Positions 791-21,379 of a DNA stretch of 22,553 bases are shown here, in pieces (positions within the stretch are counted from its first letter, which is position 1; every line of letters begins with the position of its first letter). The notes below the pieces were generated by a model. It did no database searches, was not told where the DNA came from, and saw only the letters and a program-made list of their open reading frames with translations. Both the position numbers and the translations under genes were made by a program. The stretch spans positions 1 through 22,553 of the forward strand of contig NZ_SMMD01000938.1 in assembly GCF_009711475.1 (NCBI RefSeq). The letters are read 5' to 3'. The DNA is from Fulvivirga aurantia (lineage in GTDB: Bacteria > Bacteroidota > Bacteroidia > Cytophagales > Cyclobacteriaceae).

Positions 791-1433
791 AAATTTCTAT
801 ATACTCCTTGATTTTTTCATTTGCCTGATGCCGGTAAAACCTGACAGAGCTTTGTGTTAAGTTGAGCTCCGCTCGTAATCTTTTTAATAAGTGTCCCGGC
901 AAATTATGCCCCTCCACAAAATGTGCTTCATAAGTCAGGTATATGATTCGGTGTTTTTCTGAAAGCCTCTCAAGTGCCTTCTTAACTATTTCATACCGCT
1001 TCTTGAGAATTCCTCTTTTTTCAACAGCATAATTGTCGTAGTTCGGTTCAGGCATTTTATAAACAATATCTTCTTCACCTGTATAAGGCGAATTTTGCTC
1101 ATTCCGCCAATTAATCAGTTCCCTTTGAGCAATTCTGTATAAATAAAATTTAACGCCTGTATCATGATCAGCAGCCCTTGATTTTTCATGGTTGTATTTG
1201 GGATATTTCCAAAAACGGTGAAACGTTCTTTGTGATATCATGGTCGCCACCTGCTTATCAAGGCCATTATTTTTACAAATGACCTCACATTTTTTTACCA
1301 AATCCTCACCAAAACGAAAACAGAAGACGTGAAAGGCAGCCTGGGCGGCTTTTTCAAATCCATCATCGCCCTTCATCTTGATATACTCGATGATGTCTTC
1401 GGTTGTTTCGTCTTCGTATTCCTGCCAGTTCAC
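783..1433 (-). CDS. Sigma-70 family RNA polymerase sigma factor-like protein
   Basis: 216 residues. The N-terminal half (about 28-115) resembles a region 2-like helical bundle ending in FYLYRIAQRELINWRNE, the position where sigma factors have the region 2.3/2.4 helix. The C-terminal part (about 145-210, ALERLSEKHRIIYLTYEAHF then LKRLRAELNLTQSSVRFYRHQANEKIKEYI) resembles region 4 with its HTH. The start is a GTG at 1433: an in-frame TAG lies a few codons upstream and no ATG lies between; the next internal ATG is about 20 codons in. It is the first gene of a three-gene unit with the 112-residue protein and the ImmA-like protease, which suggests a regulated alternative sigma factor. The family call is moderately sure. 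Confidence 0.65.
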   Translation of the reverse strand: MNWQEYEDETTEDIIEYIKMKGDDGFEKAAQAAFHVFCFRFGEDLVKKCEVICKNNGLDKQVATMISQRTFHRFWKYPKYNHEKSRAADHDTGVKFYLYRIAQRELINWRNEQNSPYTGEEDIVYKMPEPNYDNYAVEKRGILKKRYEIVKKALERLSEKHRIIYLTYEAHFVEGHNLPGHLLKRLRAELNLTQSSVRFYRHQANEKIKEYIEIYG

Positions 1434-1942: not shown

Positions 1943-2206
1943 TTATGGTTCCCCCAGCCTTTCAAACAAAAATCTCACAATCTCCGGGCGAAGCAACTTA
2001 GTGTGTTTGGTATAACCGAACTGCTGGAGATCTTCAAAATACATGTGGATCCAGGCGGAGAAGGTTTTGGTGCAAACGTGGTACATCTCGGCCAGTTCAT
2101 ATTTGTAGTAGGCCTTGATTTTAGGCACGTCTTCATCCTGGAGAGCAACGGGCATCATTCGGGCAGCAGATGACTGGGAGGCGGTATGAGAAATAGATCT
2201 TTCCAT
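1943..2206 (-). CDS. Small HTH DNA-binding protein, last gene of the cluster
   Basis: 87 residues. After a disordered, Ser/Ala-rich N-terminus of about 30 residues comes a compact HTH: YKYELAEMYHVCTKTFSAWI (about 34-53) and a closing segment LLRPEIVRFLFERLGEP. The layout (YxKxELAxxxxVxxxTF... LLxPEIVxxxxxxLG) is that of short Bacteroidetes HTH proteins with a Homeodomain-like/MerR-like fold, and it resembles the 61-residue HTH protein at the opposite end of the cluster. It lies one base after the stop of the preceding 134-residue gene, so it belongs to the long operon. A role as regulator of the cluster is inferred from position. Confidence 0.75.
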   Translation of the reverse strand: MERSISHTASQSSAARMMPVALQDEDVPKIKAYYKYELAEMYHVCTKTFSAWIHMYFEDLQQFGYTKHTKLLRPEIVRFLFERLGEP

Positions 2207-2207
2207 G

Positions 2208-2612
2208 TTACAGGGTGTCCCCTCCCATTTTTTTCCATATACTCAAGGGGATTTCTTCACGCAGGGCCGTGTCAAAATGGTAGGCTTTGATCATGCCTTC
2301 CCAGGCCGGTTTAGTTTGTAGGATTTTAAACAGAGCCTTCAAGTCAGTCAAGTCTTTGGCAGGAAGCTCAGGATTTTTTCTTTTGATCTTATCTTCCAAA
2401 GGCTTCAGCTCTTTGGCGGTCAACTTGCGGTTCAGCCCCTTAAGTTCAATGGCGTAGTAGCTTTTGCCTTCATGAGCTTTCTGATTGAGGTACTGCTGAA
2501 TCTCACTGGCCGTGAACATGCCTTTTCTGATCAAGCGATCATTGCGATTGAACACCGCATAGCGTACTTTCTTATCTATTGGCTTGTTTCCCGATGTGAC
2601 TACTTTCTTCAT
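2208..2612 (-). CDS. Unknown basic protein (134 residues)
   Basis: Not recognised. It is a hydrophilic, lysine-rich protein without membrane segments or signal peptide. A small alpha/beta start (KKVRYAVFNRNDRLIRKGMF, about 14-33) is followed by a helix-rich part including LTAKELKPLEDKIKRKNPELP and KDLTDLKALFKILQ. It shares one base with the upstream gene's end at 2612 and ends one base before the HTH gene, so it is cotranscribed with both. The net positive charge would allow nucleic acid contact, but no DNA-binding motif is visible. Confidence 0.65.
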   Translation of the reverse strand: MKKVVTSGNKPIDKKVRYAVFNRNDRLIRKGMFTASEIQQYLNQKAHEGKSYYAIELKGLNRKLTAKELKPLEDKIKRKNPELPAKDLTDLKALFKILQTKPAWEGMIKAYHFDTALREEIPLSIWKKMGGDTL

Positions 2613-3016
2613 TAGTACTTCAGGATTTTAAGATCAGATCGTTTCCAGCCTTTTTTGAGCATTTGTTTTAATGCAGACTCGGCTTCCTTCTTGGTCTGAT
2701 ACACTTTGGGTTTGGATTGCACCCGGTACTTTTCGCTAGCTTTTACTTCGCTACCGAAAATGGCATAGCCTTCTCCTCGCTTGACGGGTTTGGCCTTTTT
2801 CGTTAGCTTTCTTTTTCTCTTTAACAGCTTATCGGCTGCTTTATCTGCTTCTGCAGCGGTAGTGTAAATCGCGTGTACTCTATCAATCGTCAATCCTCCC
2901 AGAACCTGACGGAACAGTCCGGCCAACGAATCCGGTCGGCCATCGAACACATCCACTCGCTCAGAGTACTTGGTGGGTTTATACACCACATAGAATTTAT
3001 TGAGATCAAGCTTCAT
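2612..3016 (-). CDS. Unknown basic protein with an internal repeat (134 residues)
   Basis: Not recognised. It is very rich in Lys and Arg. Two segments look like diverged copies of one unit: about residues 49-71 (AIYTTAAEADKAADKLLKRK) and 104-126 (KVYQTKKEAESALKQMLKKG), both reading aromatic-x-T-x-x-EA-x-x-A-x-x-x-LLK-like, each after a short beta-like stretch. The region between them (RKLTKKAKPVKRGEGYAIFG) is strongly basic. This could be a pair of small alpha/beta modules that bind nucleic acid or a polymer. It overlaps its neighbours by 4 bp upstream and 1 bp downstream. Confidence 0.65.
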   Translation of the reverse strand: MKLDLNKFYVVYKPTKYSERVDVFDGRPDSLAGLFRQVLGGLTIDRVHAIYTTAAEADKAADKLLKRKRKLTKKAKPVKRGEGYAIFGSEVKASEKYRVQSKPKVYQTKKEAESALKQMLKKGWKRSDLKILKY

Positions 3017-3240
3017 AACTGAATAAGTTTAAGTTGTCCGTTCCGGTCTATATACCCAAGCGTATTTTGTTGGTAGCATTCTTCCGGTATCAGTTCTTCT
3101 CCTATGGTATTACCCAGAAAGCCGCCCAGCAAAATGAAAGGGTAATAGTCCTCTATTTTCAACTGTTTAGCCATCAAGAACCCAGCCATAGAGCCGATGA
3201 GTGCCAACCCTGCTTTCTTCGTATTTTTAGATAACTTCAT
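3013..3240 (-). CDS. Small membrane protein (75 residues)
   Basis: Not recognised. The N-terminus has Lys residues followed by a hydrophobic stretch with glycines (about 11-26, AGLALIGSMAGFLMAKQL), then a second less hydrophobic stretch (YYPFILLGGFLGNTIGEEL, about 32-50), and a soluble tail. One or two membrane helices are plausible. It overlaps the L,D-transpeptidase-like gene by 14 bp upstream and the next gene by 4 bp, so it is part of the operon. Small single-helix proteins of this kind recur throughout this cluster. Confidence 0.65.
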   Translation of the reverse strand: MKLSKNTKKAGLALIGSMAGFLMAKQLKIEDYYPFILLGGFLGNTIGEELIPEECYQQNTLGYIDRNGQLKLIQL

Positions 3241-3925
3241 AGCGTCTGGAGTTAATAAAAGAATTGGCCACCACGGCTATTGAAGAGGCAATCAAAGATG
3301 TCCAGGCAGTAATACTCAACGTTCTTCTGCGCTCATCTCGAAAGTCAACCAATGTCAACGTAAAGCGGTTGTCATGCATACTGCGATGAATTTTGGCCAG
3401 CTTCATAAATAAGTCGTAATCTTCGGCATTGGCAAAAACCAGACACCCAGCAGAAAAACTATCAATTACCTTGGCTGACCCGGATTGTCTAGCCCGGTGA
3501 ATGTTGATCCCGAACTTTCCAGTGTCGGGGGAACCGCTTTCGAACCAGTTGAAAATGCCCTTACGATCATAATCACGAATGACTGTAACATCCTCTACCT
3601 GAACTACAGCCTCATAAATCCCTCTGTGTAGTCCAATGGCATAAGCATCCATATATTGACCTTTTTTCAGAAATGCCGTTCCCTGGGGATGCATGGGATT
3701 ATCGAGCCAATACTGCCCCGGGTCGGTGGTGGCTGGAAAGACATGATATACCCACTTTCCGAGTTCATTTTTGTAAAACACATGGATTTCGTCATCAAAG
3801 CGGTTGCTACGAACATACTTGCTCCGGTAGGCCACTATATTGAGTTCATAGGGCTTATCAAAGAGCTTATAGTCTTTGCTGCGTAGTATGTTTCTTGTTT
3901 TGCTGAGCATGAATTTATGGATCAA
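3227..3925 (-). CDS. L,D-transpeptidase (YkuD)-like protein with C-terminal membrane helix
   Basis: 232 residues. The mid-region carries INIHRA (His143) and, 15 residues on, DSFSAGCLVF (Cys161), the His...S-x-G-C arrangement of the YkuD catalytic motif. YkuD enzymes cleave or join peptidoglycan stem peptides. There is no N-terminal signal peptide; instead a hydrophobic helix lies near the C-terminus (about 205-222, TAWTSLIASSIAVVANSF), which would tether it to a membrane. The strand-rich N-terminal half (about 25-115) fits the same fold. It overlaps the CHAP endolysin-like gene by 11 bp. With that protein it gives the cluster two cell-wall-active enzymes. The exact activity (transpeptidase or hydrolase) cannot be decided from sequence. 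Confidence 0.72.
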   Translation of the reverse strand: MIHKFMLSKTRNILRSKDYKLFDKPYELNIVAYRSKYVRSNRFDDEIHVFYKNELGKWVYHVFPATTDPGQYWLDNPMHPQGTAFLKKGQYMDAYAIGLHRGIYEAVVQVEDVTVIRDYDRKGIFNWFESGSPDTGKFGINIHRARQSGSAKVIDSFSAGCLVFANAEDYDLFMKLAKIHRSMHDNRFTLTLVDFRDERRRTLSITAWTSLIASSIAVVANSFINSRRYEVI

Positions 3926-4454
3926 TGAAATTGCTTACTGCCCACACCTGTCGCTGGATCCTTCGTTTGCGATATACGCCATCACCTTCTCGTGAGCCAT
4001 CGTCATTGGTATTTCCTTCCACCGTGATCACCCAGGCATCCTGCCATTGGTCTATAAAACCAATATGGGCTGGGCGTTTCAACCTTTCGTACCAAATCAG
4101 GAAGACATCCCCCGTCTGTGGAAGTTGTTTCATAAACTTGCCTCTTTGGTAGATCAGGTTTTGCTTGGTGGCATAGCTCGGCACCCATGCACTTTTCGGG
4201 TGCTCCACATCCACCTGCTGGTAACACCAACTTACGAAGGCGGCACACCATGCATAGCCAGGGTCAAAACCTACGGAAGCTAAATATTGCTCCACATTCT
4301 CTCCTCGGTTTGCTCCGCCTTGCTCACGGACACCTACCTGGCTGAGATATATTTTTTGTAGCTCGTTTCTTTTGCTCAGATGATCCTGGCCAGAAAGACT
4401 GCTGCAAACAAAAAAGCAAAGAAGATAGCTGTAGATAATTTTAGCTTTTGCCAT
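3915..4454 (-). CDS. CHAP-type amidase/endopeptidase, endolysin-like, with signal peptide
   Basis: 179 residues. Residues 1-22 form a signal peptide (basic start, hydrophobic LLCFFV core, SSLSGQ cleavage region). The domain that follows has YAWCAAFVSW (Cys70 nucleophile), GDVFLIW, AHIGFI (His130) and VEGNTN (Glu146/Asn148), the Cys-His-polar triad of CHAP/NlpC-P60-like peptidoglycan hydrolases. The gene start lies 79 bp inside the upstream holin-like gene in another frame; I keep this start because it supplies the signal peptide and no later in-frame ATG exists before the catalytic domain. An overlapping holin and endolysin is a familiar phage lysis arrangement. It may equally serve wall penetration or cell-wall remodelling. 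Confidence 0.85.
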   Translation of the reverse strand: MAKAKIIYSYLLCFFVCSSLSGQDHLSKRNELQKIYLSQVGVREQGGANRGENVEQYLASVGFDPGYAWCAAFVSWCYQQVDVEHPKSAWVPSYATKQNLIYQRGKFMKQLPQTGDVFLIWYERLKRPAHIGFIDQWQDAWVITVEGNTNDDGSREGDGVYRKRRIQRQVWAVSNFIDP

Positions 4455-4771
4455 GAGGTAATGGTTTTAAAGTCTTGAGCAAATTGATGGTCCAAATAAT
4501 CATCGGAAGTGGGCCAGATCAGCTTCATCAGGATGCGAACGATCCCGTGAAGTAAAAACAGGCCAATAATCGCAAACAGATAGACCTGGAATACCCCCGC
4601 ATCATAAGTAGCGGCAGTGGGATCTATTTTGCGAAGGAACCAGGCACTGTTGGCCCAGAGAAAGAGCGCTACGGCTATGGACGATAATTCCCGCCATACT
4701 TTCAGGTAGTTCCACAACCATTGCAAGACCGGAACTACATTCGTTTTTAACCATTGTTTGAGTTTGTTCAT
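4376..4771 (-). CDS. Small multi-helix membrane protein, holin-like by context
   Basis: 131 residues with about three predicted membrane helices: ELSSIAVALFLWANSAWFL (about 28-46), YLFAIIGLFLLHGIVRIL (about 64-81) and STAIFFAFLFAAVFLARI (about 113-130), with basic and aromatic connecting segments. No family is recognised from sequence alone. Its tail overlaps the start of the CHAP endolysin-like gene by 79 bp, and the size, topology and position match holins of phage lysis cassettes. That role is inferred from context; a structural membrane protein of the same particle is the alternative. Confidence 0.7.
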   Translation of the reverse strand: MNKLKQWLKTNVVPVLQWLWNYLKVWRELSSIAVALFLWANSAWFLRKIDPTAATYDAGVFQVYLFAIIGLFLLHGIVRILMKLIWPTSDDYLDHQFAQDFKTITSWQKLKLSTAIFFAFLFAAVFLARII

Positions 4772-4773
4772 CG

Positions 4774-5802
4774 CTAAATCAGTTTTAAGTTTTGTGTAGG
4801 GGCGTATACGGTCACCCCATTTTCAGTAATGATTTGGGCTATGCCCTTATTATTATTGGCCAGATAGCCTACTATCGTTCTGGGCGGAATGGCTGGCAAT
4901 ATATAATCCCCCTGTCCGTTGCGCAGCATCGTATGTTTTTGGGTAATGGCCACATTCAGAGCCTGGCTATCTTTCAAATATTGTTGCAGCTCCTCCAGGG
5001 TCTCCAGTTCGCCCAGTCCGGACAAGGTCCATGTGCCGGACGGGCTTTGCTTTAAGCCCATACGGATGAACTCAGCTCTGATCTTTACCTTAGCCGGTTC
5101 GTTATTTTTAAAAGCTACGCTGAGCAAGGCATTCACTGGACTGGTAACTCTGACTCCTCCGACAATGGCATTAGAAAAATGGCTTCTCACTGCCAGATAA
5201 TCATTCGTATTTTGCATTTGCTTCAGGGCAGCCAAGGCAGCAAACAGATTGCGGCTGTTGGCTGCTTTGAGCAGCTCGTCTGCAATGGCCTTGCTACTCA
5301 GGGTGCTGCTTTGAGCAGAAGTGCTGCTGCCCACAATTTTGCTGAAAGTACTTTCTGAAACGGTGGTGCTATAGCCTGCTGCCCGGAGTGCTTTTTCTGT
5401 TCCACCACCAAAAACTCCATCAGGTGTGCCGTCTGGCCGGATGCTGGTGCTGCGGATATGGCTGGCGGATTCTCCTCCCAGTCTGAGCAAGCCTTGCTGA
5501 AGTTGCTTGACCAGCTCACCCCTTGATCCGCTTCTCAGTGGGAAGAAACTACTGCTCGTAGTTCGGGGAACTGAGGCAGGCAAAGCCGGGATGATATTAT
5601 TAACAGTAAGTCCTTGTCCGCGTTGCATCACCGCCCTGTCCTGCAAATAATTGTACAAGAGATAGCCACCACCTAATACCGCCCCGGCTCCCAGGCCATA
5701 GATGATGTATTTTCGTTGAACACCCGTCTTTTGCTTTGGTACCGGTTGTTTCCGATTTGCCAATGTGGGTTTTGTATTGCGTTTTCGTGTCTTTGTTGCC
5801 AT
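4774..5802 (-). CDS. Membrane-anchored protein with peptidoglycan-binding domain
   Basis: 342 residues. A basic N-terminus (1-31) precedes one membrane helix (about 32-51, YIIYGLGAGAVLGGGYLLY). After a Ser/Pro linker, residues about 87-157 form a PG_binding_1-like domain: LRSGSRGELVKQLQQGLLRLGG, then DGVFGGGTEKALRAA, with a basic and serine-rich insert between. A helical region follows (about 168-250, containing LFAALAALKQMQNTNDYLAVRSHF), and the end (about 290-342) looks beta-rich and SH3-like. The topology suggests a protein anchored in a membrane that grips the cell wall. It is 2 bp from its neighbours on both sides. Comparable anchors occur in wall-spanning complexes and at virion vertices; which applies here is unknown. 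Confidence 0.75.
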   Translation of the reverse strand: MATKTRKRNTKPTLANRKQPVPKQKTGVQRKYIIYGLGAGAVLGGGYLLYNYLQDRAVMQRGQGLTVNNIIPALPASVPRTTSSSFFPLRSGSRGELVKQLQQGLLRLGGESASHIRSTSIRPDGTPDGVFGGGTEKALRAAGYSTTVSESTFSKIVGSSTSAQSSTLSSKAIADELLKAANSRNLFAALAALKQMQNTNDYLAVRSHFSNAIVGGVRVTSPVNALLSVAFKNNEPAKVKIRAEFIRMGLKQSPSGTWTLSGLGELETLEELQQYLKDSQALNVAITQKHTMLRNGQGDYILPAIPPRTIVGYLANNNKGIAQIITENGVTVYAPTQNLKLI

Positions 5803-5804
5803 GA

Positions 5805-6239
5805 TCAGGGTTTTGAATTGATAATCTGTAAAGCGGTGGCGAACTCTTCGGAAGAGAGTTCGTCTTTCAGGTCAGCGGCCAGGTTCCTTCCGTAGAGGTC
5901 ACGGTAAGCCCGCTGTACTTTGTTCATCACCGAACTGGTCGGAATGGCCTCCAGCACAGCAAATACGGCTGCCTCATCGGTGCCCCAACCGAAATAGTTG
6001 TCATTCTCAAAGGCCATTTTGAGCTGGGTGGCAAATGCGGCCGGATTACCTTCTGTCAGGGCCTGGTTTTCCCGAATACCCTGTTTGAAGTTTTTCACCA
6101 CTGCTTTAATGCCCAGAAATACACCAGCCGCTGCACCTACCGCCAGAATAGTAGAAGTCACCTGACTGCTGATGCTAATCCGGGGACGGTTTTGCCAGGC
6201 CAATTGCCCGGCTTTATATGCTATCGCTGGTACGGCCAT
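5805..6239 (-). CDS. Membrane-anchored protein with a single annexin-like repeat
   Basis: 144 residues. A membrane helix lies at about 27-46 (VTSTILAVGAAAGVFLGIKA). Residues about 66-142 read like one annexin repeat: GWGTDEAAVFAVL at 84-96, then AYRDLYGRNLAADLKDELS at 111-129. The calcium-site signature of annexins is GxGTD plus an acidic residue about 40 positions later in a LKxEL context; here Gly84-x-Gly86-Thr-Asp88 and Glu127 in LKDEL are both kept. Eukaryotic annexins need four such repeats to bind membranes, so a single repeat on a membrane anchor is unusual. The gene shares one base with the next upstream gene. Function is unknown; calcium-dependent contact with lipid, or a purely structural helical module, are both possible. 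Confidence 0.72.
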   Translation of the reverse strand: MAVPAIAYKAGQLAWQNRPRISISSQVTSTILAVGAAAGVFLGIKAVVKNFKQGIRENQALTEGNPAAFATQLKMAFENDNYFGWGTDEAAVFAVLEAIPTSSVMNKVQRAYRDLYGRNLAADLKDELSSEEFATALQIINSKP

Positions 6240-6427
6240 TACTTTTTGATTCCGAGTTTCATTTTCACCACATTGCGTACAAAAGCATCTGATTTGAAGA
6301 TTTTCTCCATCTTGATGATGCCCTCCACTTTGAAGGTGGCCACCATCGTTTCGAAGGCTTTTTTGACCTGGTTAACTTCTACCTGGTTTTTAGCTTTCAG
6401 TTTGATATTGAGGTTAAATTCTTCCAT
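6239..6427 (-). CDS. Small basic protein (62 residues)
   Basis: Not recognised. It has a short beta-like start (FNLNIKLKAKNQ), then a helix (VEVNQVKKAFETMVATF), a strand and a second helix (IIKMEKIFKSDAFVRNVVKM), ending in lysines. This alternation and size fit a small alpha/beta fold. It shares single bases with both neighbours (ATG/TAA-type junctions), a strong sign that it is real and translationally coupled. Confidence 0.68.
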   Translation of the reverse strand: MEEFNLNIKLKAKNQVEVNQVKKAFETMVATFKVEGIIKMEKIFKSDAFVRNVVKMKLGIKK

Positions 6428-7293
6428 TAGCTTAGATTATTTCTTTCCGATTGTTCTGTTTGCTTTTGCTTGGACTTTCTGATCTTTTTCATCTGGTTGA
6501 GGTAGTAGATTACCTTGGTAACCATAGTGGCATCTTCCTTGACCTGCTCACCGAGCTGGCTGACCATCTGCACGACTTGCTCAAACTGCTCATCGTCAAA
6601 CAACTCTCGGAAGTACTCGGAGATGTTGAGCAGGTTTTGCTGCTCTTCAGAGAGGTTGGCTGCCGGAAGTAACTGCTTCACATCTTCACCACTCAGACTT
6701 CCCAGGGTGGTAGCCAATCCCTGCATTTCCTTGGGGTACTTGCTGGCCAACCCATTAATAGCACCCGGCAGCAGCACTTTGCCCAGCTCTACCAGGCTGA
6801 GTTTTTTGACCAGCTCCTCAATTTCATCGCATTTTTCTTCCAGTGCCTCTTCGGACTTTTCTAGTTCTTTCTCCAGCTTTTCTATGTCCTTCAGCAAACC
6901 GGCATTTTCCTTTTTCAAAGTATCATAATCACGCTTAAGGAGTTCGTCTTTTAGCAACCCCTCCACCTGGTTATGAATGCCATTGAGCGACTCATCCCTG
7001 CTTCGGCTTATTTCCTCCAGCTTTTGCTTGAGCTGCTCATTTTCCATAGAAAGCTTCTGTAGTGCCAGTTTGTCTTCAAAGGAGTCACCAGTAACTTTTA
7101 CAGGTGCAGTATCCGGTTTTTCTTCGCTGACCCGCGTAGGATTATCCCGTAGTACCTGCAAGTGTTTCTGTGCCCCGCTGAGTTTATACTTTACATACGC
7201 ACTTTCATTCTCCAGCCCCAAAGCTTCCATTTCTTCATACTGCTCATCGGTTAGTCTAACGGATCCGGGTCTTCTGATTCTGTCTGCTTCCAT
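6427..7293 (-). CDS. Long coiled-coil protein with RHH-like N-terminus
   Basis: 288 residues, no membrane segment. Residues about 8-36 (RPGSVRLTDEQYEEMEAL, ESAYVKYKL) have the beta-helix-helix look of ribbon-helix-helix proteins. Residues about 72-175 form a long heptad-rich coiled coil (repeated L/K/E pattern such as LEKELEKSEEALEEKCDEIEEL). The C-terminal part (about 176-265) is a helical domain with several short amphipathic helices and a basic, polar tail. A scaffold or assembly role in the cluster would fit a coiled coil of this size, and the RHH-like start would allow DNA or partner binding, but both are inferred. It begins 6 bp after the preceding stop and overlaps the next gene by one base. 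Confidence 0.72.
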   Translation of the reverse strand: MEADRIRRPGSVRLTDEQYEEMEALGLENESAYVKYKLSGAQKHLQVLRDNPTRVSEEKPDTAPVKVTGDSFEDKLALQKLSMENEQLKQKLEEISRSRDESLNGIHNQVEGLLKDELLKRDYDTLKKENAGLLKDIEKLEKELEKSEEALEEKCDEIEELVKKLSLVELGKVLLPGAINGLASKYPKEMQGLATTLGSLSGEDVKQLLPAANLSEEQQNLLNISEYFRELFDDEQFEQVVQMVSQLGEQVKEDATMVTKVIYYLNQMKKIRKSKQKQTEQSERNNLS

Positions 7294-7299
7294 ATCACC

Positions 7300-7608
7300 T
7301 CATTTTAAGATCACCTGGATAAACTTTACTTTTCTGGTTTCGGAGGATTGGTTCAGGATTTCAATCCGATCCGCATGCTCGTGGGTGTTTTCTGAGAGAC
7401 GGGGATTGTTGTAATCATACTCCCCAAAATCTGAGCTGATACGGATGCCGGATTCGGCTTCCAGCAATATCCAGAGTTCGTTAAAAGCAGCTAGTTGGAT
7501 TTCCTGTTTTGGCTCCAGGTTCAAATCTTGGAATACCATCCGGTAAGATTGAAACCCACGTTCCTGCACCCTTTGAGGGATGTATCGTATGGCCAGTTCT
7601 TCAGTCAT
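7300..7608 (-). CDS. Small beta-rich protein (102 residues), fifth of five in a row
   Basis: Not recognised. The central and C-terminal parts alternate polar and hydrophobic residues as beta strands do: IQLAAFNELWILLEAES, GIRISSDFGEYDYNN, HADRIEILNQSS and VKFIQVILK. The final strand runs to the very C-terminus, as in small jelly-roll or beta-sandwich proteins. There is no signal peptide or membrane helix. It follows the 111-codon gene by 7 bp. In the cluster it may be a spike, vertex or minor coat component (inference from context only). Confidence 0.7.
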   Translation of the reverse strand: MTEELAIRYIPQRVQERGFQSYRMVFQDLNLEPKQEIQLAAFNELWILLEAESGIRISSDFGEYDYNNPRLSENTHEHADRIEILNQSSETRKVKFIQVILK

Positions 7609-7615
7609 TTTTCAA

Positions 7616-7933
7616 TTATTCGGGTTCTTTTTCAATCATCAGCCAAAGTTTTACCTTGTAAGGCCCGGTGGTATATCCCACATCTTTAAATGCTCCGGTT
7701 ACATAATCACCGCTGATTTCAATATCCATAGGATGAATAGGCAGATTCGGAATTGGCTCGTTCAGTTCAACATCGTTGAAGTTGCAGTTCGTATCAAAGT
7801 TGAACAGGTAACGATCCTGCTTGAGCCGGTCATGATCCCGGAAGACTGAGGTGGCTTCAATCACTTCGGTTTTCATCTCTATGCCTTTTGGGCTGAATAT
7901 GGATAGTTCTCCCAGTATCATCAATTCAGTCAT
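7616..7933 (-). CDS. Small beta-rich protein (about 105 residues), fourth of five
   Basis: Not recognised. I chose the ATG at 7933 (MTELMILGELSIF), which overlaps the upstream stop by 8 bp; in-frame ATGs at 7936, 7942 and 7951 would add up to six residues. The sequence alternates in strand-like fashion (LMILGELSIFSPKGIEMK, EVIEATSVF, DRYLFNFDTN, PMDIEISGDYVTGAF) and ends with YKVKLWLMIEKE, a final strand close to the C-terminus as in its neighbours. There is no membrane segment. A minor structural role beside the 208-residue candidate coat protein is inferred. Confidence 0.7.
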   Translation of the reverse strand: MTELMILGELSIFSPKGIEMKTEVIEATSVFRDHDRLKQDRYLFNFDTNCNFNDVELNEPIPNLPIHPMDIEISGDYVTGAFKDVGYTTGPYKVKLWLMIEKEPE

Positions 7934-8495
7934 CATCCTCTTCATCGTCATCTATATCACCGTTACCATTTCCTCCTGACGCTGGAATTACCTCCAGTTG
8001 CACTTTACCCAACCCGGCATATTTACTTTCCCAAACCCAATAGTCTTCTTTAAAATCTGTCCAGAAATCCCTGATTTCTACCACCACCGGATCTTTGAAT
8101 TTATCCTGGTGACCATTCAGCTTCAGCTCCGACATTTCCAACCGTTTAGGCTGGGCGTAGTACAGTTTTTCACCTTCCTTAACTTCAATCTGATACACTA
8201 TCGGCTGACTTCCGATTAGATCATCTTTCAACCCGCAGACCAACGCTTGGTTGATATGAGTATCTGGCGCACTTCCCACATAGACCCGGTTATGGTGCAT
8301 CATATGATCAGAGGCATCATGCGTGATGATCACTCCTACTACCTTCCGGCTGCCATGTGGTACTTTTTCTTTAAAAGTTCTGTACTGCCCGTTTTCGGTG
8401 ATGGAAATTTCCACCGGTACAAAGTGTCTTTTGATGAGCAGTTTCTCGGCTACTTCACCTTCCAATGTAGGCGGTATGGTCACTTTTCTGATCAT
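7926..8495 (-). CDS. Beta-rich protein with acidic tail (189 residues), third of five
   Basis: Not recognised by family. Residues 1-170 look dominated by beta strands: KVTIPPTLEGEV, FVPVEISITENGQYRTF, RKVVGVIITHDAS, IVYQIEVKEGEKLYYAQPKRL, and near the end DPVVVEIRDFW, EDYWVWESKYAGLGKVQLEV. The C-terminus (about 171-189) is a flexible Gly-Asn stretch followed by an almost pure Asp/Glu run. Its ATG overlaps the stop of the 130-residue gene in an ATGA junction. The LYY-x-x-x-xRL segment echoes LYYRGSQRIEI in that neighbour, hinting at a shared fold. It is a candidate coat, vertex or receptor-binding component. Confidence 0.7.
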   Translation of the reverse strand: MIRKVTIPPTLEGEVAEKLLIKRHFVPVEISITENGQYRTFKEKVPHGSRKVVGVIITHDASDHMMHHNRVYVGSAPDTHINQALVCGLKDDLIGSQPIVYQIEVKEGEKLYYAQPKRLEMSELKLNGHQDKFKDPVVVEIRDFWTDFKEDYWVWESKYAGLGKVQLEVIPASGGNGNGDIDDDEEDDD

Positions 8496-8884
8496 ATTTC
8501 CTCTTCCAATAACAGCACCACAGATACCTGATAGCCATTGCCCAAAACCGCCCGCTCATGGTCTTTATCCTCGTAGCGGATTTTGACAGACAGGTCTCCA
8601 GGTTGAACTTCACCCAAATCAAAGAAACGCTCCCTCGGTGCGACACTGATGCTGGAAATCAGGATTTTGCTGTCAAAGCCTTCAGGGAAAAGCTCATCTC
8701 CTCCAATCTCTATTCGTTGCGATCCGCGATAGTAGAGCTTGTTGGGAAAATCGGAAGTGAGTTGTAATCCCTTCACAAAAGCGGTCTTTTTGGGCAATTC
8801 CCACTTTTGAGGAGTGTACAGCTTGTTCGCTTCATTTACCTGAAAGCTGAAAGTCTTCCGTATTTCCCGGGTCTGTTTTTCCAT
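8492..8884 (-). CDS. Beta-rich protein (130 residues), second of five
   Basis: Not recognised by family. A short charged N-terminus leads into strand-like segments: TAFVKGLQLTSDFP, NKLYYRGSQRIEIGGDELFP, KILISSISVAPRERFFDLGEV, LSVKIRYEDKDH and a final YQVSVVLLLEEEI ending exactly at the C-terminus. The pattern, with a last hydrophobic strand and no signal or membrane segment, suggests a compact beta-sandwich or jelly-roll. It sits 11 bp after the 208-residue candidate coat protein and overlaps the next gene by 4 bp, so its product is probably made in a fixed ratio with theirs. Confidence 0.7.
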   Translation of the reverse strand: MEKQTREIRKTFSFQVNEANKLYTPQKWELPKKTAFVKGLQLTSDFPNKLYYRGSQRIEIGGDELFPEGFDSKILISSISVAPRERFFDLGEVQPGDLSVKIRYEDKDHERAVLGNGYQVSVVLLLEEEI

Positions 8885-8895
8885 CAGTGTGCAGA

Positions 8896-9522
8896 TTAAG
8901 CAGGTACAGTTGAGGTACCGGCCAGTACGACCTTGATCAGGGTTTTGTCCGGGGCATCATCACCCAGCTCGATGGTGAACTCAAACTCCTCGTCATCACG
9001 AATAAATCTCGGGTTTTCCAGATAATAGGTACCTAGGTTGACCTGAAGGTTGTTGTCGGTAACGAATTCCTGCATCGGTCGCTCATCCACAATTATCTTT
9101 TTGTTGGCCACAAATGTCCAGACCCCGTTCTGAAGACCTGCCACCGCTTTGATGGAATCAAAGTTGGCAGACTTGATCAATTGCTTCCAGGCGGTATCGG
9201 ATTGGGGCAACTCACCTTCAAACTCTTTGGCCAGCAAGATGATCCGATTGCAAAGAAACAGCCGATCTTTAGGCAGCTTGGATTGGGTCACGTTGGTCAC
9301 CCCAATCTCCTTGGCATCCTGGGTTTCAAACATGTGGATGGTAGCCCGGTCGCCTCCGTATTTGATGGAGTAATAGGCACTATCAGACAACTGCAAGCGG
9401 CCTTCCTTGATCCCTTCAGCTACTTTAACCATAGCCGGGTCGTGCTTCTTGCCCTGCTCCCGGAGTGAGAGGTGGGCATTGACAATTTCCAGAAATTGTT
9501 CTCTTGAATTTTTACGTATCAT
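8896..9522 (-). CDS. Candidate major structural (coat) protein, beta-rich, 208 residues
   Basis: Not recognised by family, so the coat role is a hypothesis. The N-terminal third looks helical (SREQFLEIVNAHLSLREQGK, DPAMVKVAEGIKEG). From about residue 45 on it alternates in strand-like fashion: DSAYYSIKYGG, RLFLCNRIILLAKEF, GVWTFVANKKIIVDERP, LGTYYLENPRFIRDDEEFEFTIEL, and finally TLIKVVLAGTSTVPA. A last strand of the type KVVLxGT at the extreme C-terminus is common in jelly-roll coat proteins. It has no membrane segment or signal peptide. It is the only gene of the cluster set off by a sizeable gap upstream (91 bp), as expected for a product made in large amount, and it heads a run of five small beta-rich genes. 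Confidence 0.68.
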   Translation of the reverse strand: MIRKNSREQFLEIVNAHLSLREQGKKHDPAMVKVAEGIKEGRLQLSDSAYYSIKYGGDRATIHMFETQDAKEIGVTNVTQSKLPKDRLFLCNRIILLAKEFEGELPQSDTAWKQLIKSANFDSIKAVAGLQNGVWTFVANKKIIVDERPMQEFVTDNNLQVNLGTYYLENPRFIRDDEEFEFTIELGDDAPDKTLIKVVLAGTSTVPA

Positions 9523-9613
9523 GTTTATTAGAATTTAGTATTGAGTACAGAGTAGTTAGATGATCTTCATAGCGTAAATAGCTTGTGGCTTATAGCTTTC
9601 AACTTGAAGCTTT
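9523..9613 (-). other. Largest gap within the cluster, with repeated AGCTT-type words
   Basis: These 91 bases are the longest non-coding stretch inside the operon. They contain imperfectly repeated words: AGTA/AGTAC/AGTAG at 9538-9555 and GCTTG, GGCTTATAGCTTT and AAGCTTTTT between about 9581 and 9613. AGCTTTCAA and TTGAAGCT can pair as a short hairpin. On the coding strand a weak promoter-like pair exists (TTG, 19 bases, TATTTACG), matching the Bacteroidetes -7 consensus at only six of eight positions. This could be an internal promoter, a processing site or the remnant of an intergenic repeat. Confidence 0.4.
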
Positions 9614-10210
9614 TTAGGCCACAGCATTGAGTTCCAGTGCGTCAGTGCCCTGTAGTTCCGTAATATCAGGATTGCCAAAAGCTCCCAGATCACCCACGGC
9701 CTCATTGCTTTCAAATCCTGATTGTTCCTCTATGAGACTTTCAGCATTACCATCTTCCAATTGGCGTATGATCTCATCTACTTCAGATGTATCAAAATTG
9801 CCGATATCGCCCATGTAGCCATTGACCATCAGTACTTCACTGTCTTCCTTGCCATCCAGGCCAAGCTTTTCGCTCAGTGAGGGAGACAATTTGTCCAGGT
9901 ACACTTTCTTACCCAGGGCCTTCAGAGATGATAATGCCCGGTTTTTGGCATTGCCAATTTCATTCTGAAACCCATCCAGGCCGGATACATTCTCTTCGCT
10001 TCGCTGGGCAAAGCCATTGGAAGCCACCATGCCCACCCCGGCTGAAGTAAGCCAGTCGTGCTCGTACCAGGCTCCACCGAAGATGGTAGCTGCCCCGATC
10101 CAGAGCGAGTGCCTGCCTACAGCCGAACCAGCCAGCATACCGACCAGGCCTGAGCCAAGGTTTTTGCCTGTTTCAATCAGGCTGTCTTTTACTGTTGCCT
10201 TTGTTTTCAT
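9614..10210 (-). CDS. Glycine/alanine-rich membrane protein with acidic C-terminal half
   Basis: 198 residues, not recognised. The N-terminal part has two glycine-rich hydrophobic stretches (about 17-32, NLGSGLVGMLAGSAVG, and about 36-64, LWIGAATIFGGAWYE through AGVGMVASNG), giving one or two membrane helices of low bulk. The rest is hydrophilic, with a helix (NEIGNAKNRALSSLKALGKK), then an acidic and disordered tail rich in Asp, Glu, Gly and Asn. Small-residue membrane helices of this sort are found in membrane-containing virion proteins and in holins, but also elsewhere. It follows the 468-residue gene by 23 bp. Confidence 0.68.
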   Translation of the reverse strand: MKTKATVKDSLIETGKNLGSGLVGMLAGSAVGRHSLWIGAATIFGGAWYEHDWLTSAGVGMVASNGFAQRSEENVSGLDGFQNEIGNAKNRALSSLKALGKKVYLDKLSPSLSEKLGLDGKEDSEVLMVNGYMGDIGNFDTSEVDEIIRQLEDGNAESLIEEQSGFESNEAVGDLGAFGNPDITELQGTDALELNAVA

Positions 10211-10233
10211 CGTATTTGTATTAAAGTTTTCAT

Positions 10234-11640
10234 TTACAGTAGCGCAGTAGGTACCAGCTTCCTGTTTTTTTTGCGCACACTTTTCTTTTTCGTCTTGGAT
10301 TTACCACTGCCTTTAAATCTTCCCTTCGTATCCCTGGGAATGCCGTCCACAGATTTGGACTTTTCCTTCTTTTTAGACTGCTGGACTACATAGTATATAC
10401 CGCCACCGGCTACCAAGACTCCCGCACCAATCAGCAGTGGGGTTTTGTGCTTTTGAAAGAAGCCCTGCTTTTCTGGCCTTTCATCGGTCGTTGTTACTAC
10501 CGAAGTGGATGCAGGTGCCCTCCTGACCAGCGCGGTGGTTGTAGGAGCAGGTGTGCTGGGGGATTTAACTGGCAGGGTCGGAGAAGTAGCTACAGGCCTG
10601 CGCACCAGCGAAGTGGTTTGCGGACTGAACCTGACCAAGGGTTTTGGGATAGGCTGCGGTTGCAGCACCGAGGCTGAACCACCGCTGGGTGTTGGTACAA
10701 AAGATTTGGCTGTGCTCACCAGGCTTTTGACGTCACTCTGGGTTTTCTTGGCTTTGTCAAATACCCCAGTGATTTTATTAAGTAAAGCGGAAATAGTACC
10801 TACTGCTCCGGAAGCGGCAGCAACTGCGGTTCCGGTCACCACCACACCTAAACCTTCTACTTCAATGCCATCATCCAGTAGTTGTTCCACCTCATCGGCA
10901 TCTGCTTCCACGATCATTTTTTCAAAAGGATCCACATAATCATCCGCTGCGGATAAGGGACTGCCTAACCCATAACCACTCAAGGGTACCGCTTTATCGC
11001 GATTGCCTTTACCAGTAAGAATGGCTTTTTTGAGGTTTTCTTTTTTGCCACCGGCCAACTCGTAGATTTTATCCGCTTTGCTGATGGCTTCCTTTAGCTT
11101 AGCAAACCCACTCATATTCATGCCGCGCTTTCGGGCTTCCGCATCACTGAGGTAACCAAAACGAAGGCGTTCAGCCACTTTCATCAGGTTGGTTTTCATC
11201 GCCAGCAAAAAGCCATTTCTCAAGAGAATTGTTGCCGGATTCAGGTAGCGGTTCACTGTTTTTACTACGGGAGTAATCACTTTCTTAGCCGTGAACTTGG
11301 CCGCATTGGACACTCCTTTGGCCACCGGTTTGATCACTTTCTTGCCAACAAACTTGGCCGCATTTTTTAAGCCCCTGCCAATCTTCTTGAAAAAGCCCAG
11401 CTCGCCTAAGCCATCAATCACATACAGGTTTTCTTCGGCATCAGCATACATGATTACATTGCCGTTTTCATCCTGTATTTCGTAAGCGATATCCGGGCTT
11501 TGGACATAGCCCAGAGCTTCCAGGGCTTCAATCTGCTGGCCGCTCATTTCTCCTTCCTCCATAGTCTCAAAGTCTATGTCCTGGATATCGACATTATCCA
11601 ATCCAGAGGCGGTAAATCCGTCTAGTCTATGCAATTCCAT
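10234..11640 (-). CDS. Large protein with tandem amphipathic repeat, membrane helix and highly basic tail
   Basis: 468 residues, no known family recognised. Residues 1-80 are acidic. Residues 85-128 are strongly basic and amphipathic, with two tandem 19-residue units (91-109 and 110-128), each reading x-x-NAAKF-x-x-KKVI-x-PV-x-K. A helical region follows (133-205, NPATILLRNGFLLAMKTNLMKVAERLRFGYL). Residues 262-290 are small and hydrophobic (Gly/Ala/Val). A Pro/Ser/Thr-rich linker (315-385, with LVRR three times in variants LVRF, LVRR, LVRR) precedes one membrane helix (401-420), and the last 48 residues are dense in Lys, Arg, Gly and Ser. The basic tail would suit binding nucleic acid across a membrane; the amphipathic repeat would suit membrane binding or remodelling. 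Both are inferences. Confidence 0.72.
   Translation of the reverse strand: MELHRLDGFTASGLDNVDIQDIDFETMEEGEMSGQQIEALEALGYVQSPDIAYEIQDENGNVIMYADAEENLYVIDGLGELGFFKKIGRGLKNAAKFVGKKVIKPVAKGVSNAAKFTAKKVITPVVKTVNRYLNPATILLRNGFLLAMKTNLMKVAERLRFGYLSDAEARKRGMNMSGFAKLKEAISKADKIYELAGGKKENLKKAILTGKGNRDKAVPLSGYGLGSPLSAADDYVDPFEKMIVEADADEVEQLLDDGIEVEGLGVVVTGTAVAAASGAVGTISALLNKITGVFDKAKKTQSDVKSLVSTAKSFVPTPSGGSASVLQPQPIPKPLVRFSPQTTSLVRRPVATSPTLPVKSPSTPAPTTTALVRRAPASTSVVTTTDERPEKQGFFQKHKTPLLIGAGVLVAGGGIYYVVQQSKKKEKSKSVDGIPRDTKGRFKGSGKSKTKKKSVRKKNRKLVPTALL
11257..11370 (-). repeat. 57-bp tandem repeat inside the 468-residue gene
   Basis: Two adjacent 57-bp units (11314-11370 and 11257-11313) encode the paired 19-residue amphipathic segments. 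The DNA is still similar: ATCACTTTCTT occurs at 11276 and 11333, and AACTTGGCCGCATT recurs with the same offset. This indicates an internal duplication rather than convergent sequence. Confidence 0.75.
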
Positions 11641-11646
11641 AATTAA

Positions 11647-12573
11647 TCATGTTAAAATTTCTGTTAGTTTATAAGCGCCTAAACCTATTCCTAAGGCCAG
11701 CAGAATTCTTCCTGCCACTCCTAAACCTTTTTTTGTCCTTTCTCTGGCCAAAGGTGAAGTTGGATTGATTAAAGCTTCCTTTACTTTCACCTTTGGTTGG
11801 GGGTGGGTTATTTGCAATGCCGACTGGGGCGCGTTTTTTTGCTCGGGTAACTTTCTGATAGTAAGCTTATCTGATGTTGTCTCCTGATTTTTCATTGGAT
11901 CAACCCTTCTTACTTGTCGCAGAGGTAACCTGGGTTGTTTCAAATTATAAATGCCCAAGCCATGTATCAACAAATCAGCTGAGTCCACACCACTGACTTC
12001 CCGGATTCCGTTGATCTCGTCCACTGATCTGCGGTCGGCTATATCAAAATCCTTAGACTCAGAGTAAGGCACTTCATAGTTGAAGTGGTCAGTGACGCAA
12101 TCCAGAATGATATAACCACTCCTGGTTGGCACAATGGGATAGATATGTTGAAAGTAAGGTTTGCCACCGTATTTAGTGATTCTTACCCTGTGCGAAATAT
12201 TCAGGTTGGTAAGAATGCTAGAAATGAAAACGGTGTAGCAATCGCAATCCACGCCTTTCTTCCGATCCGCCCAGGTACGGGACGGTCGTCTGACCTGTTC
12301 TACCCCGGTTTTGTCACGGGCATACTGGATGTGGTTGTACACAAAATCCCAGATGTTTTCACAAGTGCCTTTTAGTGTCCGACCTTTCAGGGTTTTGGCA
12401 AGCAGTGCAGTATCACCTTTGGTTTCCCTTACCACTTGCTTGATCAGGTTGATGGTATGGTGCAGCCTGGCACTTCCTTCCGGACGGATCACTTTGTCCT
12501 GTTTGATGCTCATGGGAAAGAGTTTATCGAATTCATGTCCGGAGGCGATATATCTTTTCTTCAGTGCCTGCAT
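11647..12573 (-). CDS. Transglutaminase-like cysteine protein with C-terminal membrane helix
   Basis: 308 residues. The transglutaminase-like core spans about 35-165: helix CENIWDFVYNHIQYARD (71-87), the nucleophile segment GVDCDCYTVFISSIL (Cys110), FQHIYPIV (His143) and YIILDCV (Asp158), a complete Cys-His-Asp triad. The family includes cross-linking enzymes and peptidases. A long, Pro/Gln/Lys-rich linker (about 205-280) leads to one C-terminal membrane helix (284-305). There is no signal peptide. It touches the LEA14-like gene at base 12573 and lies 6 bp before the 468-residue gene. In this context it could mature or cross-link structural proteins, or act on the cell envelope; the sequence does not decide. 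Confidence 0.8.
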   Translation of the reverse strand: MQALKKRYIASGHEFDKLFPMSIKQDKVIRPEGSARLHHTINLIKQVVRETKGDTALLAKTLKGRTLKGTCENIWDFVYNHIQYARDKTGVEQVRRPSRTWADRKKGVDCDCYTVFISSILTNLNISHRVRITKYGGKPYFQHIYPIVPTRSGYIILDCVTDHFNYEVPYSESKDFDIADRRSVDEINGIREVSGVDSADLLIHGLGIYNLKQPRLPLRQVRRVDPMKNQETTSDKLTIRKLPEQKNAPQSALQITHPQPKVKVKEALINPTSPLARERTKKGLGVAGRILLALGIGLGAYKLTEILT

Positions 12574-13034
12574 CAGATATTGAGTTTGAGGGTTTCTTGC
12601 TGACTATAAGGAATACCGTTCACCTTGGTAGTGATGGTGGAAACCACATCCAACACGGCTTTTTGTCCACTGCGAATTTTTTGTACTAGCTCGGTACCCA
12701 GTACCTGAATAAGAGAAAGCCACCCGGCAGACTGGATGGTTAGGTTGAAAGACTGCTCTCCATTGGCCGGTAATTGGATGGTCTCGTCCTTCACCTGGGA
12801 AGTACCCAAGGAAGCCTCTTTGTAAGTGAGGTTGACAAAAGGATACTGGAGCGAAAGGTTGATAGGGTTGGGATTCTGTAAACGAATGTTGGCTTTGAGT
12901 TCTATGCCCGACAGGCTGACTTTATTGACCTGCAAGGACGTCCGGGTCACAATAGTCTTAGAGGCTTGATTGAGCCTCAGCAAATACCGGCCTACGAAAA
13001 AAGCGGCCGCTCCACCTACTATCCATTTGAGCAT
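12573..13034 (-). CDS. LEA14-like (WHy domain) protein with N-terminal membrane anchor
   Basis: 153 residues, first gene of the twenty-gene cluster. A short N-terminal membrane helix (about 3-19, KWIVGGAAAFFVGRYLL) is followed by a domain typical of LEA14/WHy proteins: VNKVSLSGIELKANIRLQNPNPI with the NPNP turn, VNLTYKEASLGTS, then ETIQLPANGEQSFNLTIQ and a final strand pair. The WHy domain is a beta-sandwich, found in desiccation-related proteins and some bacterial envelope proteins. The start codon lies inside an inverted repeat, described separately. A coat or envelope accessory role in the cluster is inferred. Confidence 0.82.
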   Translation of the reverse strand: MLKWIVGGAAAFFVGRYLLRLNQASKTIVTRTSLQVNKVSLSGIELKANIRLQNPNPINLSLQYPFVNLTYKEASLGTSQVKDETIQLPANGEQSFNLTIQSAGWLSLIQVLGTELVQKIRSGQKAVLDVVSTITTKVNGIPYSQQETLKLNI

Positions 13035-13192: not shown

Positions 13193-13222
13193 TTTCTAAT
13201 GGTTTTATTCGGTTTCTAATGG
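13193..13222 (+). repeat. Direct repeat TTTCTAATGG just ahead of and over the HTH gene start
   Basis: TTTCTAATGG occurs at 13193-13202 and again at 13213-13222, exactly 20 bp apart (two helical turns); the second copy contains the ATG of the small HTH gene. A protein could bind both copies on one face of the DNA, which would allow autoregulation. It may also be chance in an AT-rich spacer. Confidence 0.35.
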
Positions 13223-13404
13223 ATGATCAGTTTTTTCAAATACGGTTTGTGAGCAAGGCTGAACTGGCCGAAAGGTTCGGCATCAGTCGGGAAACGCTGC
13301 GCTTGAAACTGAAAGAAGTTGAGGGGCTGAATACCGGAAGACGGCAGTTGTTGTATCCCTGGGAGGTGAGGTTGGTTTACTTATACTTTAGTTCCGGTAG
13401 ATAG
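13219..13404 (+). CDS. Small HTH DNA-binding protein divergent from the cluster
   Basis: 61 residues. A short N-terminus is followed by an HTH, SKAELAERFGISRETLRLKL (about 12-31), and a closing segment RRQLLYPWEVRLVYLYF. The layout matches the 87-residue HTH protein at the other end of the cluster (ELAE, a six-residue turn, a recognition helix, then LLxPxxVRxxx). The gene is divergent from the cluster and shares with it the 13035-13218 spacer with the candidate operator, which makes it a plausible local regulator. The start ATG lies within a repeated decamer. No other in-frame ATG is available without losing the HTH. Confidence 0.72.
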   Translation: MDDQFFQIRFVSKAELAERFGISRETLRLKLKEVEGLNTGRRQLLYPWEVRLVYLYFSSGR

Positions 13405-13558: not shown

Positions 13559-13621
13559 TTGGTTTATTTTTATAACGAAATTAGTACCATGAGTACCCAA
13601 AATGAGTCAAAAATAAACCAA
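13559..13621 (+). promoter_or_regulatory. Perfect 13-bp inverted repeat flanking the AbiEi start codon
   Basis: TTGGTTTATTTTT (13559-13571) and AAAAATAAACCAA (13609-13621) are exact reverse complements; with one mismatch they extend to 16 bp outward. The start codon of the antitoxin gene (13589-13591) lies in the 37-bp spacer, and the arms are 50 bp apart start to start. AbiEi antitoxins are known to repress their own promoter through inverted repeats, so this is a good candidate autoregulatory operator. It could also form an mRNA stem closing off the start. Confidence 0.65.
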
Positions 13622-15254: not shown

Positions 15255-15322
15255 ACGTCTCTATTATGCACTATCTATAAGCTGTGATTTTTAAAACTGA
15301 ATGATTATTTTCAAAGACAAAA

Positions 15323-18381: not shown

Positions 18382-18432
18382 ATCAATCCGATTAGGTATT
18401 TCAAAAGGCTTTTTTTCATAAGAATCAAAGGC

Positions 18433-20934: not shown

Positions 20935-20935
20935 G

Positions 20936-21367: not shown

Positions 21368-21379
21368 GATTCTTCTATA

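Follow-up and report, generated by a model that had tools for sequence, protein, structure and literature searches.

A stretch of 22,553 nucleotides from Fulvivirga aurantia, analyzed here at full length and called the window, comprises the entire contig C516 of a genome (G000) assembled in 947 pieces. At positions 1943-13034 it carries a block of 20 genes, which is very probably the particle-and-lysis half of a tailless-virus provirus found in Fulvivirga and other Bacteroidetes and distantly linked to the phage SSIP-1. The block is conserved and mobile: complete cases have tRNA repeats and a recombinase, an SSIP-1-type ATPase is located elsewhere in the element, and the lysis enzymes are exchangeable. 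We infer the coat fold, the membrane and the tailless shape of the window's element. The initial annotation of the window, made from its letters, had taken the block for the structural and lysis part of a virus-like element without a tail, and this proposal is supported by the mobility and by the ATPase of the SSIP-1 family.

All 20 open reading frames (ORFs) are on the minus strand, collinear and tightly packed, and are numbered from g23 (12573-13034), which is transcribed first, to g04 (1943-2206), which is transcribed last. The close spacing described in the initial annotation was confirmed: the 19 junctions range from -79 to +91 bp, 10 of them are overlaps, and the largest gap of 91 bp is followed by one of 23 bp. 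The ratio of nonsynonymous to synonymous substitution (dN/dS) relative to the orthologues in G010, a metagenome bin (Flammeovirgaceae UBA1842), was 0.005-0.17 in all 18 of the 20 genes that could be measured; g06 and g19 gave no value because dS was saturated. All 18 measurable genes are under purifying selection. Because of these ratios and because the gene order recurs in other genomes, the block is more than a chance arrangement. The occurrences given below refer to 86 loci, which comprise 82 loci (80 from a collection of species genomes and 2 IMG/VR contigs), 3 further loci and the window; families across them were built by single linkage, and near-identical loci were kept in the counts.

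12573-13034, minus strand: g23, first gene, LEA_2-type domain (Pfam E 9e-6) after an N-terminal hydrophobic segment; 75 of 86 loci.
11647-12573, minus strand: g22, transglutaminase-like (Pfam DUF553, E 2.7e-6), C-terminal hydrophobic segment; relative of the SSIP-1 structural protein gp34.
10234-11640, minus strand: g21, 468 amino acids, C-terminal hydrophobic segment; fused with g22 in one reading frame in many relatives.
9614-10210, minus strand: g20, small protein immediately upstream of the coat candidate g19; 82 of 86 loci.
8896-9522, minus strand: g19, best candidate for the major capsid protein; 84 of 86 loci (by construction, as loci were fetched with g19).
8492-8884, minus strand: g18, second conserved particle gene, 130 amino acids; 84 of 86 loci.
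7926-8495, minus strand: g17, fast-evolving particle gene of family F14 (38 loci); the other group of loci has F12 (42 loci) in this slot.
7616-7951, minus strand: g16, particle gene in a subset of loci (36 of 86).
7300-7608, minus strand: g15, small conserved particle gene; 80 of 86 loci.
6427-7293, minus strand: g14, conserved, coiled-coil-like judging from weak matches; 80 of 86 loci.
6239-6427, minus strand: g13, small protein of family F17 (33 loci); alternative occupant of the slot F13 (39 loci).
5805-6239, minus strand: g12, hydrophobic segment and annexin-like stretch (Pfam Annexin, 22.6 bits, below the cut-off of 25); 75 of 86 loci.
4774-5802, minus strand: g11, peptidoglycan-binding (PG_binding_1, E 8e-5, slightly over the curated cut-off), N-terminal hydrophobic segment; 77 of 86 loci.
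4376-4771, minus strand: g10, membrane protein by hydropathy, holin by position only; no family match.
3915-4454, minus strand: g09, CHAP wall hydrolase (E 5.5e-7); phage endolysin family, E 2.9e-20.
3227-3925, minus strand: g08, phage-type phrog_3000 (a family of unknown function, E 4.4e-30) and endolysin family (E 3.5e-11); 67 of 86 loci.
1943-3240, minus strand: g07-g04, a small membrane-type protein, two small proteins and a terminal DUF4248 protein (g04).

Of the wall-active, peptidoglycan-binding and transglutaminase-like products predicted from the letters, the family searches recovered g09, g11 and g22, and g08 matched an endolysin family. The gene g08, which matches 29 phage records with crAss-like and other phages among them, probably functions in lysis. 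The prediction of at least seven products with membrane helices held with a loose 17-residue hydropathy cut (9 of 20 products) and failed with the strict 19-residue cut (4 of 20). Similarly, the holin-like nature of g10 is in keeping with its hydrophobic segments and its position, and it had no database match. No terminase, portal or ATPase was matched among the 20 block proteins in the family searches, as had been stated. The accompanying statement that tail and baseplate genes are missing has to be qualified by g09, whose CHAP-containing stretch also matches a baseplate-hub/tail-lysozyme family (7.8e-5) and one of the minor tail families (0.037). The remaining tail or head matches of block proteins had E values of at least 0.07, except for one of 0.0022 between g11 and an endolysin that is classed with head and packaging proteins.

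The g19 probe recovered at least 377 proteins from 8000 scored candidates and 171 loci (278 pattern stretches) in the species-genome collection, of which 80 were kept. Judged by record title, 76 of the 80 belong to Bacteroidota, including Fulvivirga imtechensis and several Aquimarina, and three are metagenome bins with proteobacterial names, which are presumably mis-binned. The search for the same gene order in other Bacteroidetes, which the initial annotation had suggested, found most core genes in that order across the 86 loci, with complete cases that have a recombinase and the ATPase. The usual order is g23, g22, g21, g20, g19, g18, a g17-type gene, g15, g14, a g13-type gene, g12, g11, the lysis genes and g08, and g22/g21 are present in 83 of the 86 loci. 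The flanks and the lysis genes vary between loci while the core order is kept, and the wall-enzyme slot is occupied in relatives by CHAP, Amidase_2 or other families, some of which we take, by eye, to be GH108-type or FlgJ-like. The g22 protein is present in 17 of 58 related genomes, and in a sample of 395 from the phylum only 6 genomes, that of F. aurantia among them, have g19. The window's g19 shares 95% identity with its G012 counterpart and 82% with that of G010, whereas most neighbouring genes are closest to G010, which indicates that the particle genes recombine. Several genomes have at least two copies of the particle block (G060 on C18, G024, G026, G055 and G112). A search of viral contigs with g17 gave nine pattern stretches with no relative among them, and neither family F27 nor g11 matched any phage record.

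A complete provirus of about 62 kb is located in F. imtechensis (G002) at C33:43965-106024, with 28-bp direct repeats at 43965 and 105997. The first repeat copy overlies the 5' end of a tRNA-Arg(CCT) gene (43919-43991), and immediately inside the second is a tyrosine recombinase belonging to the phage integrase family (104408-105799). The interval between the repeats contains the block, the ATPase and a DNA-methylase-helicase protein. The tRNA-Arg gene is intact near hflX in all six genus genomes fetched there; in G014, F. kasyanovii (G001) and F. marina (G008) a single alignment extends from hflX across the repeat core, representing an empty site. In G112, the 3' part of tRNA-Arg(CCT) recurs as a 57-bp repeat at C3:52911 and 103372, the first copy lying next to a serine recombinase. 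Sequence identity also points to movement. For the window-type element, G010 and F. kasyanovii have in common 8,357 bp with 99.95% identity and 31,868 bp with 97.4%, whereas in the pnp region of that G010 contig the identity between the two is 72.7%. Given this difference, about 40 kb moved recently between the species, unless the G010 contig is chimeric. The block is mobile. A cluster fixed at one chromosomal place, which had been named as grounds for rejecting a viral origin, is ruled out by the complete cases bounded by tRNA repeats and by the movement of the window-type element between species.

The same tRNA site is found in F. aurantia, F. kasyanovii and G010. In F. aurantia (C103:1-530, L166) and G010 (C2:76168-76660, L024) a group I intron (Rfam RF00028) splits the tRNA gene at the element end, presumably tRNA-Met(CAT) as named by eye. 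About 160 bp upstream, the 5' half of this tRNA gene is present in a second copy that resembles a used attachment site. No convincing repeats were found at the element ends in F. marina, G010, G012 and G096. The F. imtechensis provirus also encodes a 1418-amino-acid protein with SprB repeats and a secretion-system C-terminal sorting domain (C33:66175-70431, L162), which possibly alters the host surface. No replication genes were identified in the window's own element; in one relative (L075), the block is preceded upstream by a DUF1376 gene and by one of DnaC/IstB-like type.

The missing ATPase and replication genes had been considered the main weakness of a viral interpretation. In elements other than that of the window, a P-loop protein is encoded downstream of the block. 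With the ATPase of G010 as the probe, a match was obtained in 8 of 8 genomes including that of F. aurantia, those in G012, F. imtechensis and F. marina being weak with this single-sequence query. The F. aurantia ATPase is located on another contig at C103:1501-2673, adjoining the tRNA gene with the group I intron, and belongs to the family of the SSIP-1 virion ATPase. This finding rules out an element without an ATPase; the window has none because the contig ends before reaching it. Among 58 genomes, g19 was found in 13, the ATPase in 14 and both in 12, with an ATPase cut of 90 bits that was set after viewing the score list, in which the whole-genome best scores drop from 92.8 to about 61 bits. 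The ATPase was present in 12 of the 13 genomes with g19 as compared with 2 of the 45 without it (Fisher p 1.3e-9). The genome with g19 and without the ATPase (G046) is 88% complete, and its cluster contig is 13.5 kb long; the two with the ATPase and without g19 (G023 and G025) have a g22 match. At a looser cut of 1e-10, 23 of the 58 genomes pass, the additional ones probably through housekeeping RecA/RadA types. The copy numbers of g19 and the ATPase are equal in G000, G001, G002, G010, Fulvivirga sp. M361 (G013) and G033 (1/1), G024 (3/3) and G026, G055 and G112 (2/2), and unequal in G008 (1 vs 2 strong), G012 (2 vs 1) and G043 (2 vs 1 strong).

The best PHROG of SSIP-1 gp40 and of all four element ATPases scanned is phrog_6891, with E values of 2.6e-79 for gp40 over the full length and 7e-21, 5e-11, 3e-22 and 3e-20 for the element ATPases. 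An ATPase profile built without gp40 matched gp40 at 98% (E 1.8e-13, 161 columns). In SSIP-1, gp40 is annotated as a structural protein and matches AAA_25 and KaiC-type families. Thirteen of 50,697 phage records matched the ATPase, the best being an uncultured phage (1e-18), with SSIP-1 at 1e-7. The g22 protein matched only the two SSIP-1 records in the same set, a match that is weak alone (tblastn E 1e-3, 19.5% identity, 40% of the query), and SSIP-1 is the only phage matched by both proteins. An endolysin family of some relatives (F46) matched SSIP-1 gp31 at 98% (E 4e-14), whereas the endolysin slot of the window has the CHAP enzyme and not the gp31 type. The methyltransferase part of the elements' large protein resembles part of SSIP-1 gp43 (E 6e-8, in a small database). 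Alignments of the element ATPases to known packaging ATPases were short, at 77.7% over only 37 columns for P23-77 and 5.7% over 15 columns for SH1; that the ATPase is the packaging motor is our assumption.

The best candidate for the coat protein is g19, judged by its conservation and position, and its likeness to the SSIP-1 capsid proteins gp45 and gp46 is suggestive. A profile made from three relatives together with gp45 and gp46 had the g19 profile as its top match among the element families compared, with a colinear alignment of 139 columns; F2, F18 and F22, merged families for which there was no alignment, were left out of this comparison. The families of g19, g18 and the g17 slot had no profile match to VP16, VP17, VP4 and VP7 of P23-77 and SH1. 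Such a failure is weak evidence because the SSIP-1 capsid profile matches none of these capsid proteins either. A capsid link through phage records was rejected, as all 11 records matched by g19 had E values of at least 0.4 and were annotated as a topoisomerase subunit in ten cases and as hypothetical in one.

Several observations weigh against a provirus of a tailless virus linked to SSIP-1. The match between g19 and the SSIP-1 capsid profile has an hhalign probability below 4% (E 0.01) and is not significant alone; an equally high score was reached by 1 of 200 column-shuffled profiles, none of the 200 aligned over 100 columns, and the reversed profile scored 12. The g19 profile had no match among PDB sequences. 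When 24 block and neighbour families were compared by profile with all 57 SSIP-1 proteins, only the endolysin matched; hmmsearch of element families against SSIP-1 likewise found only the endolysin clearly significant, with the next best at E 0.002. The gene order also differs, since SSIP-1 has the ATPase and methyltransferase between gp34 and gp45/46, whereas in the elements g22 is three genes from g19 and the ATPase and methyltransferase are downstream of both. A scan of IMG/VR found only two contigs with g19 relatives. In the F. imtechensis provirus, the family scans covered 13 of 61 listed ORFs. In G247, the left flank and tRNA of the G112 site are continuous and the right flank has no match beside them. 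In G112 itself (C3:52911-103428 and 165-210 kb; L205-L208, L215-L217), the particle block and the recombinase-ATPase module are divergently oriented in both copies, with 21-28 kb separating them. The genes between them differ in each copy and in the first include the metabolic genes for isocitrate dehydrogenase, IlvD and a class III aminotransferase; they may be cargo or chromosome split by rearrangement. The argument for transfer is weakened in that the G010 contig comes from a metagenome bin and may be chimeric. Finally, neither the window nor G000:C103, G001:C188 and 60 kb of G010 showed a recombinase on inspection by eye.

This last observation would also fit a domesticated particle, resembling a gene transfer agent or a particle toxin, that the host has retained, at least in the lineage of the window, with particle and lysis genes persisting after excision was lost. 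The purifying selection on all 18 measurable genes and the single tRNA site shared by F. aurantia, F. kasyanovii and G010 point in the same direction. The recent movement of the window-type element between species, the existence of complete elements with a recombinase and tRNA repeats and the patchy occurrence in the phylum argue against it, and we consider it unlikely. Domestication, which the initial annotation had offered as an alternative, is not needed to explain the block, and it may still apply to the window's own lineage, where no recombinase was seen.

Two other explanations dispense with a tailless virus. The wall hydrolases, the peptidoglycan binding and the membrane segments, together with metal-efflux and defence neighbours, could belong to a non-viral operon for envelope or wall remodelling that rides on a genomic island. 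However, the block is paired with an SSIP-1-type virion ATPase, includes a relative of an SSIP-1 structural protein and has phage lysis families, and a Pfam GTA_holin_3TM protein adjoins the ATPase in G112, which leaves this explanation a slim chance. Slimmer still is the chance of a tailed-phage fragment whose terminase, portal and tail have diverged past recognition. In its favor are the sharing of g08 with crAss-like and other phages, the tail-lysozyme match of g09 through its enzyme part, and a 687-amino-acid protein of the F. imtechensis provirus that has a fibronectin type III domain and matches a tail-fibre family (E 1.7e-10). Against it, terminase, portal and HK97-type proteins are absent from the matches of the 20 window proteins; the same null result was obtained with Pfam for 10 F. 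imtechensis proteins and with PHROGs for 8 of those, the F. imtechensis ATPase and an F. marina protein, the F. imtechensis proteins being few of the 61 ORFs of that provirus. Tail-type matches arose only through the CHAP and fibronectin-like parts.

The flanks of the block in the window contain the following genes.

13219-13404, plus strand: g24, helix-turn-helix-like gene (weak matches), divergent from the block; 37 of 86 loci, divergent in every one.
13559-15254, plus strand: AbiEi/AbiEii pair, common to G010 and F. kasyanovii.
1-1433, minus strand, at the contig end: CapP-like and CapH-like defence-regulator pair and a gene (783-1433) with no family match, common to G010 and F. kasyanovii.

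By its arrangement, g24 is a candidate regulator of the block, and the AbiEi/AbiEii pair is probably defence cargo of the window's element. Defence-type genes occur on either side of the block (window 1-790 and 13559-17023), comprising the CapP/CapH-like and AbiEi/AbiEii pairs and a DUF6035/CoiA-like nuclease. Genes for metal or multidrug efflux, several of them named by eye, recur beside elements (window 17205-22504, L082, L203 in G096, and G112 C3:177-198 kb), and some efflux genes are within the 40 kb common to G010 and F. kasyanovii.

What might such an element do in its host? After excision, the late operon would be transcribed from the divergent region between g24 and g23. An icosahedral shell of g19, with g18, g17 and g15, would form over the membrane proteins g23, g21, g12 and g11, and the SSIP-1-type ATPase would load the DNA, which methyltransferase or helicase proteins may protect. 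Virion-borne g22 and g11 would attack the cell wall during entry, and g10, g09 and g08 would lyse the cell. We rate the elements as an SSIP-1-linked yet clearly distinct lineage of tailless proviruses. A broader view, which we hold about as strongly as we doubt it, is that they form a temperate tailless lineage of family rank or higher, spread widely yet patchily through Bacteroidota and almost missing from virus collections. Its genome would be loaded by an ATPase of the RecA/KaiC type and not of the FtsK/HerA type, it would ferry defence, metal-efflux and metabolic genes between hosts, and SSIP-1 would be its sole isolated outlier. A literature search found no description of such proviruses, with most subscription papers and all preprints outside its coverage. 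If the interpretation is true, the orphan phage SSIP-1, with very few known relatives, joins a lineage that can be tested, Bacteroidota regularly carry large tailless temperate viruses that virus catalogues overlook, and the question arises whether a RecA-type ATPase packages their DNA.

Among known systems, SSIP-1 is described as a membrane-containing virus that has two capsid proteins and whose capsid is listed as T=49 (PMC6356626, PMC6260650, PMC4958249), and its genome as having almost no similarity to anything in GenBank (PMC6356626). A search of 5.8 billion proteins with its two capsid proteins, using a tool of limited sensitivity, found only three others. The elements resemble SSIP-1 in the virion ATPase family phrog_6891, the transglutaminase-like structural protein, the endolysin family of some relatives, a large protein with a DNA-methyltransferase domain, a PAPS-reductase-like gene that SSIP-1 shares with the F. 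marina element and a capsid-sized candidate of about 210 residues. They differ from it in several respects. The SSIP-1 host Salisaeta belongs to Rhodothermota and not to Bacteroidota; SSIP-1 has the two capsid paralogues gp45 and gp46, whereas the elements have one g19-type gene; their giant protein is a methyltransferase-helicase of another PHROG; most block proteins are without a detectable SSIP-1 counterpart; and the elements occur in integrated form and encode tyrosine or serine recombinases.

Other tailless viruses share fewer of these features. P23-77 and SH1 (Matsushitaviridae and Sphaerolipoviridae, of the vertical single-barrel type) have small capsid proteins and one ATPase near the particle genes, and P23-77 also has lysis enzymes, but the element ATPases do not correspond to the genome-packaging ATPase type of these Halopanivirales. 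FLiP and PhiCjT23, double jelly-roll phages of Flavobacterium with single-stranded DNA, are likewise described as tailless, lipid-containing phages of Bacteroidota with related prophages (PMC9719478, PMC5894146); the FLiP group is set apart by description only, with genomes of up to 17 kb and rolling-circle replication without a packaging ATPase (PMC5894146). The Bacteroides phage BS-TP4, found through the helicase-methyltransferase, was ruled out as a relative of the whole element by its annotated portal protein. Gene transfer agents are similar in that particle and lysis genes persist in chromosomes, and one element has a GTA_holin_3TM protein. In contrast to them, the elements described here have recombinases and tRNA attachment repeats and have been transferred recently between species.

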